From Akkermansiaceae bacterium (GTDB lineage Bacteria; Verrucomicrobiota; Verrucomicrobiia; Verrucomicrobiales; Akkermansiaceae), in assembly GCA_903826205.1 (NCBI GenBank), contig CAIKDP010000124.1, positions 1 through 41,456 on the forward strand: a stretch of 41,456 bases of DNA. The letters run 5' to 3'. The notes under the pieces are model-generated. The model was given only the letters and a program-made list of their open reading frames with translations, did no database searches and was not told the DNA's origin. Position numbers and translations under genes: made by a program. Shown piece after piece: positions 146-41,456 of the stretch. Every line of letters starts with the position of its first letter. Positions within the stretch are counted from its first letter, which is position 1.

Positions 146-604
146 ATGTCAGACATTCTCCCGCGACTTCAGGAAGACCTCAAAGCCGCGATGCGGGCCA
201 AGGACGTCGTCGCCCTCAATGCCTTGCGCGCCTTGAAAACGGCGCTGACCAACGCCGCCATCGAAAAAAGCGGATTGGGCGCCGCCCTGGATCCTGCCGA
301 GGCCGTTTCGGTAGTTAGAAAGCAGGTCAAGCAACGGCACGATTCGCTGGCGCAATACGCGGCCAACGACCGTCCCGAGCTGGCCGCCATCGAGCAGGCG
401 GAAATCACCGTGTTGGAGCGCTACCTACCCGCCGCCCTGACCGCCGAAGAGCTCGATGAACTGGTGGCCGCCGCCATCGCTGAAACCGGCGCCAGCAGCA
501 AGGCCGAGCTCGGCAAGGTCATTAAATTGGCGCAAGACAAAGCCGCCGGCCGCGCCGATGGCAAGACCCTCTCGCAAGCCGTGATGCAACGGTTGGGGAG
601 ATAG
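146..604 (+). CDS. yqeY: GatB/YqeY domain protein
   Basis: The product is 152 aa and matches the YqeY family, small proteins that share the tail domain of the GatB amidotransferase subunit and are thought to bind tRNA. Seen in the sequence: an N-terminal helical segment (ILPRLQEDLKAAMRAKD), the central block with LERYLPAALTAEEL, and the C-terminal GKVIKLAQDKAAGRADGKTL type sequence typical of the family. The length is normal. I chose ATG 146 because the family begins with a short MSDIL-like segment. The 39 residues upstream in the same frame look non-coding and run into the palindrome at 1-30. No Shine-Dalgarno precedes the start. The exact cellular role of this family is not established. Confidence 0.88.
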   Translation: MSDILPRLQEDLKAAMRAKDVVALNALRALKTALTNAAIEKSGLGAALDPAEAVSVVRKQVKQRHDSLAQYAANDRPELAAIEQAEITVLERYLPAALTAEELDELVAAAIAETGASSKAELGKVIKLAQDKAAGRADGKTLSQAVMQRLGR

Positions 605-37297: not shown

Positions 37298-37438
37298 CGC
37301 AGCCGGTGTTCGAGGGCGATCCCGCGGGGGACTCGGGCCATTCATCCAACAAATGAGAGCGAACCATCGGGACCGACATCAGGCGCCTCGAAGACGACTT
37401 CATGAAAAGGCTCAAGGAGGTGGCTATATACTTGCGCC

Positions 37439-38494
37439 TTAGTAGCGGCCGGGCACGGGCAATCCGCGGGCGGCGAGCATGGAAATGAGCCGGCCGGGAT
37501 CGTCCGTAATGATGCCGTCCACTCCCCAAGCGATCATCTTTGCGACCAACTCCGCATCGAAGGCGCTTCCCAGCTTTTCGGGCCAACTCCACACAACGAC
37601 CTTGAGCCCCAGACGGTGAGCCTCGTCCAGGGCCTCCTTGGTGAGTTCGGCGTCTTCCGGATCCCAGGCGTACCCGCCCATGGCCTTGACCATTGCAGGA
37701 AGGGAGCCGCCGTAATCCTGTAACAGCTTCCCCCCTGTCCACTGCCCGGCGACCTTCGGATCCGGACTGAGGAAACTTTCCTCTCCCCCCTGTTCGTTGT
37801 CGCGTGAGGTGAGATAGGCGGTCCTGATGCGACGGTCGAGCCTCTGGAGTTCGTAGAGGCATCTGAAATCAAAGGCATGGACCTCGACTCGATCGATGAT
37901 CCCCTCGTCCCTGAGCACCTTGTAGACGGCCGCAGCGAAAGCCTCGGGAGGCGGACTGTAATCAGGGTGGGCGGGGTCGGTTTTGATTTCGATTTGGTAG
38001 CGGATCCGCTTCCGCGTCTCCTTCTCCGCGAAGCGCACGACGTCGCGCAAGGTGGGCATCCGGATCCCATCCGCAGGAACCTGGTCCGGGAAGAATCGTG
38101 AGTAGGCGCTTCCCGGGCGCAGCCGGCCGACGTCGTAACCCTGGAGTTCCCTGAGAGTGAGACCCATAACAGCATACTTCCGGTCGTACGCGTCGCGCTG
38201 CGCCTGTGGCAGCTTCATCATCGCCTCCCGGCTTGGAGCCAGAAACTGCGCCTGGTCGTCGCGAGTTATATCCGGATTGAGAACCAGGTCGTGGGAAAGC
38301 AGAACCTCGTGCTCTTTGGTGAGGACCACATCCATGTCGATGTAGTCCGCGCCGATGCGCAAAGCCGTCTTGTAACCCGCCATGGTGTTTTCAGGCGCAA
38401 ACGCACGAGCGCCGCGGTGCGCATAGACCTCGATGCGCTTGGCGGGCTCAGACTGTGCCGCCGGGGCTAACAGAATGCACATGGCGAGTAACAT
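37439..38494 (-). CDS. Secreted glycerophosphodiester phosphodiesterase (GlpQ-like)
   Basis: The 351-aa product hydrolyses glycerophosphodiesters to glycerol 3-phosphate and an alcohol. A signal peptide (residues 1-15, cut near AAQSEPA) places it in the periplasm. Catalytic motifs: YAHRGARAFAPENT (H26, R27, E35), metal-site block DYIDMDVVLTK (D53, D55) and SHD (H68), then QIEIKTD and the final VDGIITDDP. The first metal ligand of the usual E-x-D is Asp instead of Glu, a conservative change. The 72-residue insert after H68 is GlpQ-like. ATG 38494 is preferred to the start at 38632. The gene ends convergent to folC. Confidence 0.88.
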   Translation of the reverse strand: MLLAMCILLAPAAQSEPAKRIEVYAHRGARAFAPENTMAGYKTALRIGADYIDMDVVLTKEHEVLLSHDLVLNPDITRDDQAQFLAPSREAMMKLPQAQRDAYDRKYAVMGLTLRELQGYDVGRLRPGSAYSRFFPDQVPADGIRMPTLRDVVRFAEKETRKRIRYQIEIKTDPAHPDYSPPPEAFAAAVYKVLRDEGIIDRVEVHAFDFRCLYELQRLDRRIRTAYLTSRDNEQGGEESFLSPDPKVAGQWTGGKLLQDYGGSLPAMVKAMGGYAWDPEDAELTKEALDEAHRLGLKVVVWSWPEKLGSAFDAELVAKMIAWGVDGIITDDPGRLISMLAARGLPVPGRY

Positions 38495-38637
38495 CAGAAA
38501 GTGGGGTCTCGTGGCTGGCGTTGCGAACGCCGAGGAGCCAGGCGGCAGGCCGGCAAGCCGCCTACGGGCCGCAGCGGAGACGGTGCGGGGAATTGGCTGG
38601 TCAGAAAGCGGCGGAGTGGAATGGCTTGGCACGACGA

Positions 38638-38666
38638 ATCGTATGGTCGGGAAATTTCAAGGTCAA
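38638..38666 (-). promoter_or_regulatory. Candidate promoter of the glycerophosphodiesterase gene
   Basis: On the minus strand TTGACC (38661-38666), a 17-nt spacer and TACGAT (38638-38643) form a good sigma-70-like pair, leaving a leader of about 137 nt to ATG 38494. The rest of 38495-38709 shows no gene. Confidence 0.5.
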
Positions 38667-38709
38667 GAAGTACGGGCGGCGGGCGTAAGAACATAGATAA
38701 GCTCTGCCA

Positions 38710-39345
38710 TCATTCCTTCGTAGATGTTGAGCTCGTCACCTGCCAATGGCCGCCACGATCCGGGCCGATACGACGGATGAGGCCGCTGGTTTTGAGTTTT
38801 TCCAGATGATATTTCACTCCGTTTTCGGTGATGTCTCCGAGCAGGGTGGCGAGTTCCCTCCGGCTAATGGCAGGGTGCTCGCGCAGAATTCCAATGATTT
38901 TCTGGGTAGTCTTCTGGGTAGTCTTCTGGGTAGTTTTCCCCGACGTTTTCCCCGACGTTTTCCCCGACGTTTTCCCCGACGTTTTCCCCGACGTTTTCTC
39001 TCGGATGATGTCCAGATACGCTGGAGCAAAGGGGAACTCGATCCAGAGGTCATTGGGCTTGTAGTCGATGATCGGCTCGGGAACGCCCGCTTCGCGGCAG
39101 GCTTCAAAGATGCGCTGGATGCCGCGGCCCCAAGTCTCGATTTCGCCGGCGCGGAAGAAGGCATTGGCCAGGAACGGGTTGTAGGGGCTGGAGGCATGAT
39201 CCGCCAACAGGTGTTCCAAGGTCCAGCCTTCCGGCAGGACAGCCGGGTTCCAGATTTTCAGGCGGTTTTCATAAACGCGGATTTGCACCGGCGCGCCGAC
39301 AGCATAGTCGCGATGCACCAGTGCGTTGAGGATTGTACCCGTCGC
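38710..39345 (-). pseudogene. Truncated AlbA_2/HATPase-type regulator (RecG-like), N terminus lost
   Basis: This encodes the C-terminal part of the family once annotated as RecG-like or transcriptional regulator: TILNALVHRDYAVGAPVQIRVYENRLKIWNP, then EIETWGRGIQRIFEAC. A hydrophilic repeat linker follows, then a winged helix (ISRRELATLLGDITENGVKYHLEKL). The N-terminal AlbA_2 DNA-binding domain and the start of the ATPase-like domain are missing. The frame upstream (MPPTPARSWASSATG) is not family sequence, because at about 39333-39345 the reading frame passes into an antisense-phase fragment of a DUF932 gene. It is probably non-functional. The junction is seen by comparison with remembered family sequence. 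Confidence 0.72.
38899..38994. repeat. 12-bp tandem repeats encoding a (GKTS)/(KTTQ) linker
   Basis: Three copies of TTCTGGGTAGTC-type units (38899-38934) are followed by five of TTCCCCGACGTT (38935-38994). On the minus strand they encode a lysine/threonine-rich linker of 4-residue repeats before the winged helix. Because the unit is a multiple of three, copy-number change alters linker length without a frameshift. Such linkers are common in this regulator family. Confidence 0.9.
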
Positions 39346-39502
39346 CGACGACGCCCACGATCTCGCCGGAGTCGGCGGCAACGAGCGCCTTCTTGTGGGG
39401 CACGATCACATCCATCTTGGCACCATTGCGGGTGACGGTCGCATGGATGGGCGTTTCATGGACCGGGAAAAACCAACCGTTTCGCAGGGGATTGAAGTTC
39501 AT
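39334..39502 (-). pseudogene. 5' fragment of a DUF932 (phage/plasmid-related) gene
   Basis: From ATG 39502 the frame encodes MNFNPLRNGWFFPVHETPIH, then NGAKMDVIVPHKKALVAADSGEIVGVVGDGY, which resembles the N terminus of DUF932 proteins found on mobile elements. After about 56 residues the match stops at the fusion with the AlbA/HATPase fragment and the frame runs out into unrelated sequence. Most of the usual protein is missing. The start codon lies 2 bp after the stop of the VWA fragment, suggesting they were once an operon. Confidence 0.6.
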
Positions 39503-39504
39503 GG

Positions 39505-39912
39505 CTATTTCTTGCGGGATTTTTTGAGGGATTCGCCCATGGATTCATTGGCGTAGGCGGCTTCGGCGACGGCGAGGTCACACTGGGCGGCTTCGCGGCG
39601 TTTGGCGGATACTTTGCACGCAAAGGCGAGGCTGCCGGCTTTGATGTCGTCGTCATCGGCGATGAAGGTGGCGGAGTTGTGTGCCTGGATGCCCATGTGG
39701 GCGGCGGTGGCGATGGCGTCCTGGTTGGCACCGAGGAACAGAAACTCCCATTGGTATGCCTCGGTCTGATGGGTGATGCGCTGGTTGATGTCGGCCATGG
39801 AAAACTTGCGGGACGAATTTTCCTCGCCGTCGGTGAGGATGGCGATGATGACCTTGGACGGTCGCTCGGGCTCGGGGGTGGCGGCGAGTTCGCTGCCGAT
39901 GTAGTCGATGGT
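39505..39912 (-). pseudogene. 3' fragment of a von Willebrand A-domain gene
   Basis: The fragment encodes the C-terminal half of a small VWA protein: DYIGSELAATPEPERPSKVI, then ILTDGEENSSRKFSMADINQ, and WEFLFLGANQDA. The N-terminal half, with the metal-binding D-x-S-x-S motif, is absent. At about 39907-39930 the homology ends where an opposite-strand WYL fragment begins. A short ORF from ATG 39936 could still be translated. It precedes the DUF932 fragment by 2 bp on the same strand, an arrangement I associate with plasmid or integrative-element genes. Confidence 0.62.
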
Positions 39913-39920
39913 GGGTGACG

Positions 39921-40100
39921 CTCCAGGTGCGGCCACATCGGGGACTGAGCGATGAACAACGCAAGGCCGTGGAGCGCGATTACGCCATGCGCAGCGGCGT
40001 GCTGAAACTCAAGGTTAGAAAAGCGATGGAAGGCTATTTGCGCGACCGCCTGGGTCTAACCATGGCCGACGGCAAGCCGGCGCTGAGGTTGCTTGAATAA
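39921..40100 (+). pseudogene. 3' fragment of a WYL-domain regulator
   Basis: The plus strand encodes VRPHRGLSDEQRKAVERDYA and then MRSGVLKLKVRKAMEGYLRDRLGL, ending at 40100. This is the typical C-terminal tail of WYL-domain transcription factors (family form: LSxEQRxxVERDYGMxxGVLxLxVRxALLxYxLRRLGL). The DNA-binding and WYL domains are missing, cut off at the junction with the minus-strand VWA fragment. It is most likely a remnant of a rearranged gene. Confidence 0.6.
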
Positions 40101-40116
40101 GTCACGAGAGCATATG

Positions 40117-41307
40117 TCAGAGTTCTTTGAGGAGTGGGGTGAGGCCTAGCCACGGGAGGACGGTGACGGTTTCGCGGTGTTGGGCCGTGTCGCCGCCATA
40201 GACCAGCCAGGAGCGGGAGGTTTTGCCGGGCAGGAGTTTCGGACGCCAGAAGTCGAGGCCTTTGAAAGCATCGGATGGAATCGTTTGACCGGATTTCGCC
40301 TCGATGGCGTGAAGGATGTTGCCGCTCTCGACGATGGCGTCGATTTCATGACCCTCCTTGTCGCGGAGGAATCCGACGGAGGGCACTCGACCGGCATGAG
40401 CGGTCTGTTTTGCGAGTTCGGTCATCAGCCAATTCTCGAAGATGGCTCCGCGCAGCGGATGGGTGCGCAGGTGCTCGACGCTGCGGATGCCGATGAGCCA
40501 GGCGGCAAGGCCAGGGTCAGTGAAGTAGATTTTGGGAGCCTTGATGAGGCGTTTCGAAACATTGGTGAAGTGTGGACGGGCAAGGAAAACAAGGAAGCCG
40601 GCCTGGAGAACAGACAACCATGCCTCGGCGGTGGCGCGGCTGATGCCAGTGTCCGAGGCGAGCGAGGAAAGGTTTACCAGTTGGCCGATGCGGCCGGCAC
40701 ACAACTGGAGGAAGCGCTGGAAGGTGGCCAGGTCCTTGACATTGATCGACATGCGGACATCGCGCTCCAAGTAGGTGGCGACGTAGCTCTGGAGCCATGC
40801 GTCCGGGTCCACCGGGCGGTCGTGGATCGGCGGGAAGAGGCCGGCGTGGAGCAGGGTGTCGAGCGAGACCGGGGCGCGGTTCGCGTCCTGAAGTTCCGAC
40901 AGCGAAAATGGCCATAGGCTGAGCAATGAAACGCGTCCCGCCAGCGATTGGGTGATGGCCTCGATCATGCCGAACTGCTGCGAGCCGGTCAGAATGAAGC
41001 GTCCCATGCGGCGGTCAGAGTCCAGGATGCCCTGCAAATAGGAAAACAGCGGCGGGCAGCGCTGGATTTCATCGAGCACCGCGCCATCCGGGAATTGGGA
41101 TAGGAAGCCACGGGGATCTTCGTCTGCAAAACGGCGGACGTCCGGATTTTCCAAGCTGGCGTAAGGGCGATGCCCGCCGAGTTCACGGGCCAAGGTCGTC
41201 TTCCCCGATTGTCGCGGGCCGGTGATCGCAATGGCCGGGAATCCCCGCATGTTACGCAGTGCGACCGCTTTCAAATGGCGTGGTATCGTCTGGGGAGCGG
41301 CGCTCAT
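40117..41307 (-). CDS. AAA ATPase with DUF4143 domain
   Basis: The 396-aa product is a full-length member of the AAA_14/DUF4143 family. Walker A is ITGPRQSGKTTLARELGG (about 29-46), Walker B is AVLDEIQRCP (about 75-84) and a sensor-like ILTGSQQF follows. The C-terminal DUF4143 part holds YLERDVR, a helix-turn-helix-like SSLASDTGISRATAEAWLSVL, and a nuclease-like HEIDAIVESGNILHAIEAKSG (E-x-K), which resembles PD-(D/E)XK folds. The function of the family is not established; members are common in accessory regions. The ATG lies 6 nt from a -10-like box, as with asnS. It is intact, unlike the genes on its left. Confidence 0.88.
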   Translation of the reverse strand: MSAAPQTIPRHLKAVALRNMRGFPAIAITGPRQSGKTTLARELGGHRPYASLENPDVRRFADEDPRGFLSQFPDGAVLDEIQRCPPLFSYLQGILDSDRRMGRFILTGSQQFGMIEAITQSLAGRVSLLSLWPFSLSELQDANRAPVSLDTLLHAGLFPPIHDRPVDPDAWLQSYVATYLERDVRMSINVKDLATFQRFLQLCAGRIGQLVNLSSLASDTGISRATAEAWLSVLQAGFLVFLARPHFTNVSKRLIKAPKIYFTDPGLAAWLIGIRSVEHLRTHPLRGAIFENWLMTELAKQTAHAGRVPSVGFLRDKEGHEIDAIVESGNILHAIEAKSGQTIPSDAFKGLDFWRPKLLPGKTSRSWLVYGGDTAQHRETVTVLPWLGLTPLLKEL

Positions 41308-41313
41308 GGCTTA

Positions 41314-41341
41314 TTTGTAAGTCAATTTAGCAATTGGTCAA
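41314..41341 (-). promoter_or_regulatory. Candidate leaderless promoter of the DUF4143 gene
   Basis: On the minus strand TTGACC (41336-41341), a 16-nt spacer and TACAAA (41314-41319) end 6 nt before ATG 41307. The region is A/T-rich compared with the rest of the window. Initiation would be at or within a base or so of the start codon. Nothing else is recognised to the window end at 41456. Confidence 0.42.
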
Positions 41342-41456
41342 GATAAAAGCGACTTGGACAGAGTTGGGTTCGGTCAACCGGCCGTTCGGCATCATCCCCT
41401 GAAGCATGGCTTGCCGCGGGGCACTCGCCCGTACGACTGTCTGGAGCCCATCCATG

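Follow-up and report, generated by a model that had tools for sequence, protein, structure and literature searches.

A 1.4-kb mosaic at positions 38710-40100 of the window, the 41,456-nt stretch of DNA analyzed here, is best explained as the leftovers of a regulator-and-partner gene set, in which the middles of the genes were deleted and the remains joined by ordinary decay. We consider it probable that this is what decay has left of a defence-island leader, two or three deletions having cut through the leader and into its cargo. The window is one entire contig (C124) of a 5.57 Mb metagenome assembly of 469 contigs. From left to right it carries an nrdJ-like gene, a folC-like gene, a GDPD gene on the minus strand, the mosaic, and an intact DUF4143 ATPase gene on the minus strand, after which the contig ends. 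The features of the mosaic and its surroundings were as follows.

38511..38553, minus strand: relic, inner piece of a DUF4143/AAA_14 ATPase gene (blastn to L264 and L265, 84% over 44 nt)
38550..38684, minus strand: relic, 5ʹ piece of a DUF4143 ATPase gene (blastn to DUF4143 5ʹ ends in L262-L265, 71-89%)
38685..38737, no strand: stretch between the DUF4143 relic and the AlbA piece, no match found
38710..39333, minus strand: 3ʹ part of an AlbA/HATPase_c_4 regulator gene, with winged helix (residues 307-503 of 504)
39333..39338, no strand: join 1, DUF932 to AlbA, 0-1 nt shared by the parents (alignments to L210/L211 and L170/L180/L181/L188)
39334..39502, minus strand: 5ʹ part of a DUF932 gene (residues 1-57 of 311)
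39505..39912, minus strand: 3ʹ part of a VWA gene (residues 92-226 of 226)
39912..39913, no strand: join 2, VWA to WYL, 2 nt (TG) shared, about 1.2 kb missing compared with L173
39912..40100, plus strand: 3ʹ part of a WYL regulator gene, assigned to the CapW/BrxR family (residues 230-291 of 291)
40117..41307, minus strand: intact DUF4143/AAA_14 ATPase gene, full length by tblastn

The limits of the pieces were set by tblastn with full-length relatives as queries. The AlbA piece aligned at 38731-39333 (residues 307-503 of 504, 88% at the amino acid level to L170), the DUF932 piece at 39332-39502 with the DUF932 protein of L210 (61%, E 3e-17), the VWA piece at 39508-39912 with P0002 (79%, E 5e-64), and the WYL piece at 39912-40097 with P0003 (85%, E 3e-28). 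The names and strands that an earlier note had given to four truncated genes were thereby confirmed. Its statement that VWA and DUF932 are 2 bp apart was also correct, the VWA stop lying 2 bp ahead of the DUF932 ATG, and the adjoining ATPase is intact as it had said (Pfam DUF4143 1.2e-43, AAA_14 7.8e-26; PADLOC candidate PDC-S01 9.4e-99). Pfam alone names only this ATPase and the AlbA part, which encodes the entire HATPase_c_4 (E 1.9e-21) and helix-turn-helix domains; it gave no match on the short DUF932, VWA and WYL pieces. The DUF932 protein of L210 matches PF06067 (5.1e-13). The full-length VWA relative also falls under the VWA cut-off of Pfam, and plasmid records annotate matches of this kind as VWA proteins. 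The full-length WYL relative P0003 matches the structures of CapW (7tb6, 1.5e-36) and BrxR (7t8k, 2.5e-32), and by this relative the WYL gene can be assigned to the CapW/BrxR family. The WYL domain of P0003 comprises residues 148-212, and the piece in the window (230-291) contains neither the helix-turn-helix nor the WYL domain.

Longer homologues of all four pieces were present in relatives; therefore the pieces are not complete short genes, and the proposal that broken genes had been joined here by rearrangement held. Each of the four still has its own frame open. At codon positions 1, 2 and 3, the AlbA piece differed from close relatives by 11, 7 and 54 changes (194 codons), the VWA piece from L175 by 19, 13 and 30 (134 codons), and the WYL piece from L184 by 3, 2 and 15 (61 codons), a pattern that we read as a trace of earlier selection on the protein, most evident in AlbA. 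Because all four frames are open and AlbA shows an excess of third-position changes, the decay of the mosaic looks recent. Deletion-made pseudogene remnants occur inside bacterial defence islands, and the mosaic resembles them in keeping gene ends and losing middles, in having short or no homology at the joins, and in its still open frames. Within the AlbA frame, perfect or near-perfect 12-bp tandem repeats (KTTQ, KTSG) were observed at 38900-38998, and their copy number differs among relatives.

Two sharp joins had been proposed. Both were found, the first at 39333-39338; the second lies at 39912 and does not extend across 39907-39930 as had been thought. It reads GTCGATGG-TG-GGTGAC, with TG common to both parents. 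A DNA search of 73 genomes of the genus, including the source genome itself, gave a match in 40 of them, with up to five candidates scored per genome. Among the matches listed, those to AlbA stopped at 39333 or earlier, those to VWA stopped at 39913 (one at 39916), and those to WYL started at 39911-39912 (one at 39907). The window aside, none of these matches crossed either join by more than a few bases. The joined frames of the window were in no match listed from the 73 genomes, and intact homologues of the fused frames, which the earlier note had named as evidence against a scar, were likewise absent from these matches. Both joins are thus known from a single metagenome assembly, which comes without reads, and a chimera is possible.

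The gene neighborhood of relatives bears directly on join 2. Divergent WYL and VWA genes separated by under 1.5 kb were found at 10 of the loci fetched, from 8 genomes (L171, L172, L173, L174, L179, L183, L334, L335, L336 and L337; 112 loci compared, some places twice), so that the two sides of the join at 39912 are neighbors in the same order and orientation in 10 relative loci. In L173, where VWA and WYL are both whole, the points fused in the window are 1206 bp apart, and in L179, where WYL itself is damaged, they are about 860 bp apart. L179 also repeats the order of the window, with VWA, WYL and a broken DUF4143 gene beyond WYL. Since VWA and WYL are natural neighbors and an intact pair spans the gap, join 2 is an internal deletion and not the edge of an insert.

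This result disagrees with the idea that a VWA-DUF932 slice had been inserted by a mobile element between the AlbA and WYL genes, with its ends deleted later. In its favor are the two sharp joins with different partners on each side, and the survival of VWA-DUF932 as a unit. That the pair looks like a slice of an operon was borne out by a VWA remnant followed by DUF932 in three loci (L171, L185 and L297), all of one genome (G033) and all decayed. In the related locus L182 (10395-11870), a phage-integrase gene (PF00589, 2.6e-11) lies about 1.2 kb from a VWA remnant preceding MzaB, C and E, and capture by an element in general is possible. However, the VWA side needs no foreign insertion, as WYL is its natural neighbor in 10 loci, and on this ground we rejected insertion between two unrelated genes, a very unlikely course of events. 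Traces of a mobile-element relic were also lacking: the six ORFs scanned in the window matched no integrase or transposase model, no inverted or direct repeats bounded the segment in a scan of 37300-41456 (the contig ends at 41456, leaving one flank unseen), and no tRNA was predicted anywhere in the window by ARAGORN. We also rejected the idea that VWA-DUF932 came from a phage, since DUF932, WYL and AlbA gave no match in the fetched flanks of viral contigs carrying VWA relatives, of which the best 80 of 108 were compared.

Join 1 was approached through the relatives of AlbA. In L170, L181, L188 and L189, the AlbA kind of the window is flanked by an HKD-Snf2 helicase and a type IIG-like gene, a set corresponding to PADLOC C3a139 and REase_MTase_IIG, and the best relative of the fragment, with 88% protein identity, is the AlbA from one of these sets, in G052. 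The window differs in that the helicase and the type IIG gene are absent beside its AlbA piece. Of 40 fetched AlbA-match loci (E 1e-4; some places twice), none had this AlbA kind beside DUF932. VWA was nearby in three (L172, L174 and L186), where AlbA belongs to another subfamily than that of the window, and DUF932 is merely a 3ʹ remnant in two of the three. No intact WYL/VWA-DUF932-AlbA locus was found among the fetched loci. The AlbA and DUF932 pieces have the strand and order that a deletion would leave, and deletion would be the simplest reading of join 1, though a rearrangement of some other kind may have occurred on the AlbA side. An AlbA gene in G032 is also internally deleted (residues 1-130 followed by 287-363).

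A third join, beyond those of the earlier note, was found near 38737. The final AlbA codons are replaced there, with homology to G052 and to contig C284 of the source genome beginning at 38735-38738, the place where the three sequences diverge. C284 starts with the last 107 nt of an AlbA gene of the same kind (L005:1-107), 106 of which are identical to the window, and continues, unlike the HKD-Snf2 set, with a PLD-Snf2 gene and a HIT-PLD-Snf2 gene. This AlbA end is possibly a second copy or an alternative allele of the scar region, and since the contig ends within sequence common to both, the assembly may continue from there in two alternative ways, into C284 or into the right part of the window. 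A second WYL copy in the source genome, on C369, is cut by the contig start. The source genome was rejected as the source of the intact genes, because neither the N-terminal part of AlbA nor a full VWA was found in it.

The sharing of 106 of 107 nt with a contig end marks a spot where an assembler can err. Together with the fragmented assembly of 469 contigs, of which the window is one whole contig, and with the presence of the same families in several copies in relatives, it raises the question of whether one or both joins are assembly chimeras between multi-copy defence genes. We judge this unlikely. The genes on the two sides of join 2 are natural neighbors with order and orientation as expected, an outcome that would be rare for a random chimera, and this join lies inside both genes with 2 shared nt, too short for a repeat-driven misjoin. 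Moreover, damage of the same style is seen in independent assemblies, affecting VWA in five loci of three genomes and DUF932 in five loci of G033.

The VWA damage consists of residues 1-27 fused to residues 148-226 in L171, L172, L174, L182 and L183. The fusion is out of frame in four of the five copies and in frame in L183. VWA in L176 is cut at the same residue (27) from the opposite side. Copies that share the deletion precede different defence genes. The VWA 3ʹ parts did not group by deletion form: an AU test on this 237-nt part rejected one clade (p 0.0002), in a poorly resolved tree with 3 of 12 inner branches well supported. A single origin of the deletion form was rejected by this test on a weak tree, and the form may have arisen by repeated deletion or by gene conversion, which the tree does not tell apart.

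For DUF932, a mini-gene in which residues 1-49 are joined in frame to about 256-308 was present in five loci of G033 (L171, L185, L297, L298 and L299, distributed over contigs C529, C172, C277, C19 and C221). It has lost almost the entire Pfam domain (residues 49-269). G033 is an assembly of 12.6 Mb with 6% contamination and may be a mixture. Random decay alone would not predict that similar breakpoints recur in paralogues of several relatives, as they do at VWA residue 27 and DUF932 residues 49 and 256. The fivefold recurrence of an in-frame deletion that removes almost exactly the Pfam domain could mean that shortened frames, including those of the window, are selected mini-genes rather than debris, and the AlbA piece, with its HATPase_c_4 and helix-turn-helix domains whole, would suit such a role. 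For the window we find this hardly credible. Its DUF932 piece extends past residue 49 to residue 57, and is thus not derived from the short form, and then runs out of frame into AlbA. In addition, its joined frames recur in none of the matches listed from the genus, and the VWA deletion form is mostly out of frame.

Decay by deletion is therefore the reading we retain. Starting from the observed identities of the pieces, the positions of the joins and the natural neighborhood of VWA and WYL, we propose that the ancestral locus would have had a CapW/BrxR-type WYL gene divergent from VWA, DUF932 behind VWA, and a defence system behind DUF932. A deletion of about 1.2 kb at 39912, with 2 nt of microhomology, would have taken out the intervening promoter region together with the 5ʹ parts of both VWA and WYL. 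The joining of DUF932 codon 57 to AlbA codon 307 would be due to a second deletion, which must have spanned at least about 1.7 kb if AlbA was the gene immediately following DUF932, and a third event near 38737 would have removed whatever lay past AlbA. We infer both the order of these events and the plain deletion at join 1. By analogy with BrxR and CapW, WYL may have regulated the genes behind VWA, and in an intact module it would repress them until infection or DNA damage. As the promoter region, the DNA-binding part of WYL and the N-terminus of VWA are lost, the locus very probably no longer has its former function.

We compared the genes behind the WYL/VWA pair in relatives with PADLOC models (E up to 1e-8; up to 1e-3 in one scan). 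The neighbor proteins were picked by eye and not blind, and the results serve as leads, not as an enrichment test. Matches on the VWA side were found in 8 of the 10 WYL/VWA loci, as follows.

L171: DndC, DndD and DndH-like
L172: PDC-S13 and the start of DndD
L174: PDC-M26A only (a candidate model)
L179: a piece of Cas3c
L183: MkoA
L334: PDC-S13 and Cas7g
L335: Cas12b and Cas4/Cas1
L336: two methyltransferases

Of the other two, L173 lies on a contig that stops 169 bp past VWA, and L337 gave no match with a single ORF scanned. The Cas12b-like gene of L335 (1835-6193) encodes 1453 aa, and it lies with Cas4/Cas1 behind the WYL/VWA pair in a single-contig genome (G019).

Defence genes were also seen beside VWA genes with no visible WYL: Cas3e and Cas8e in L177, whose contig begins at VWA, MzaB, C and E in L182, and SoFic in L175. 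L176, L187 and L186 gave no defence match in the parts scanned; L178 and L228 end too soon and were outside the scan. Among DUF932 loci, a methyltransferase and MzaB were found in L185, Cas3g and Cas7g in L298, Cas7g and Cas56g in L302, type I restriction in L212, and AbiEii, on the other side, in L211; L297, L299, L303 and L304 were outside the scan. A HIT-PLD-Snf2 gene comes directly after DUF932 in G056 and directly after a 3ʹ remnant of DUF932 in G034 and G050; the L210 copy of the HIT-PLD-Snf2 gene matches PADLOC type IV restriction models (mREase_IV). As controls, none of 10 proteins near folC loci or on contig C255 of the source genome matched PADLOC, and in a distant VWA group without WYL, 1 of 10 proteins matched (one protein each from 10 of 16 loci). 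This single match was an N-terminal piece of a methyltransferase at L351. L350, one of the six unscanned loci of that group, adjoins a DUF4143 gene, and L343, scanned with no match, has a type IIG-like stretch about 4 kb off on the other side.

We tentatively suggest that WYL/VWA, often followed on the VWA side by DUF932 or AlbA, serves this verrucomicrobial genus as a common leader module that keeps its place at the front of defence islands while their cargo is exchanged; the evidence as it stands falls somewhat short of making this the expected outcome. The cargoes would include CRISPR I-C, I-G and V-B, Dnd, MkoA and methyltransferase sets, and, with no visible WYL, also CRISPR I-E and Mza. 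The different cargoes behind copies with the same VWA deletion and the ungrouped VWA 3ʹ ends would fit recombination shuffling the module, and the scar in the window would be a loss of cargo at such a site. The scar itself is ordinary, a case of deletion decay of accessory genes, and its value is mainly as a pointer to a CapW/BrxR-type regulator consistently divergent from VWA and ahead of very different defence systems in one verrucomicrobial genus. If this holds in a blind count, unrelated immune systems would have one control unit in common, and islands would be rebuilt at an edge that stays fixed.

WYL regulators of the BrxR family beside diverse defence systems have been published (PMC9122601), and BrxR/CapW regulators ahead of defence systems were also described in PMC9122589 and PMC9122588. 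The accessible text of PMC9122601 counts one BrxR homologue in 110 verrucomicrobial genomes and does not contain the terms VWA, von Willebrand or DUF932. In the literature searched, as far as its text was accessible, no VWA or DUF932 partner of BrxR-family regulators was found, and the WYL/VWA leader gene set looks undescribed and little studied. The relatives of the window resemble the BrxR/CapW systems in that the full-length WYL protein matches both structures and its divergent neighbor leads into varied defence genes. They differ in that the gene divergent from WYL encodes a VWA protein and is in some cases followed by AlbA or DUF932, and the window itself retains only the last 62 residues of WYL. 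A simple scan for operator-like inverted repeats in 8 WYL/VWA gaps found none that stands out; in the best case, L336, 8 of 100 shuffles were as good, and the others were weaker.

Comparison with relatives, proposed earlier as a way to find an intact donor and an empty site, gave the intact WYL/VWA pair of L173 but, to the left of the mosaic, no clean empty site beside folC. In the folC loci of 8 relatives (L255-L261 and L266), folC faces a sugar-kinase-like gene in L255, L256 and L258, and none of the 8 gave a GDPD match, L261 ending shortly past folC. In the source genome the sugar-kinase-like gene is on C255, next to a different gene. Because the surroundings of folC differ among relatives and the kinase of the source genome is on C255, the site is variable and defines no clean empty site, which was rejected as a candidate.

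Past the third join, a second DUF4143 gene survives solely as a relic that lacks its middle, a feature absent from the earlier note. The piece at 38511-38553 derives from a site about 780 bp deeper in the gene than that at 38550-38684, and it matches the intact DUF4143 gene of the window at 40479-40507 (86% over 29 nt). The apparent GDPD ORF (37439-38632) is too long, since its start at 38632 falls inside this relic, and the true start is probably near 38494. Far to the left in the window, the 7-bp unit ATCCGCT is repeated about 20 times in tandem at 646-782.
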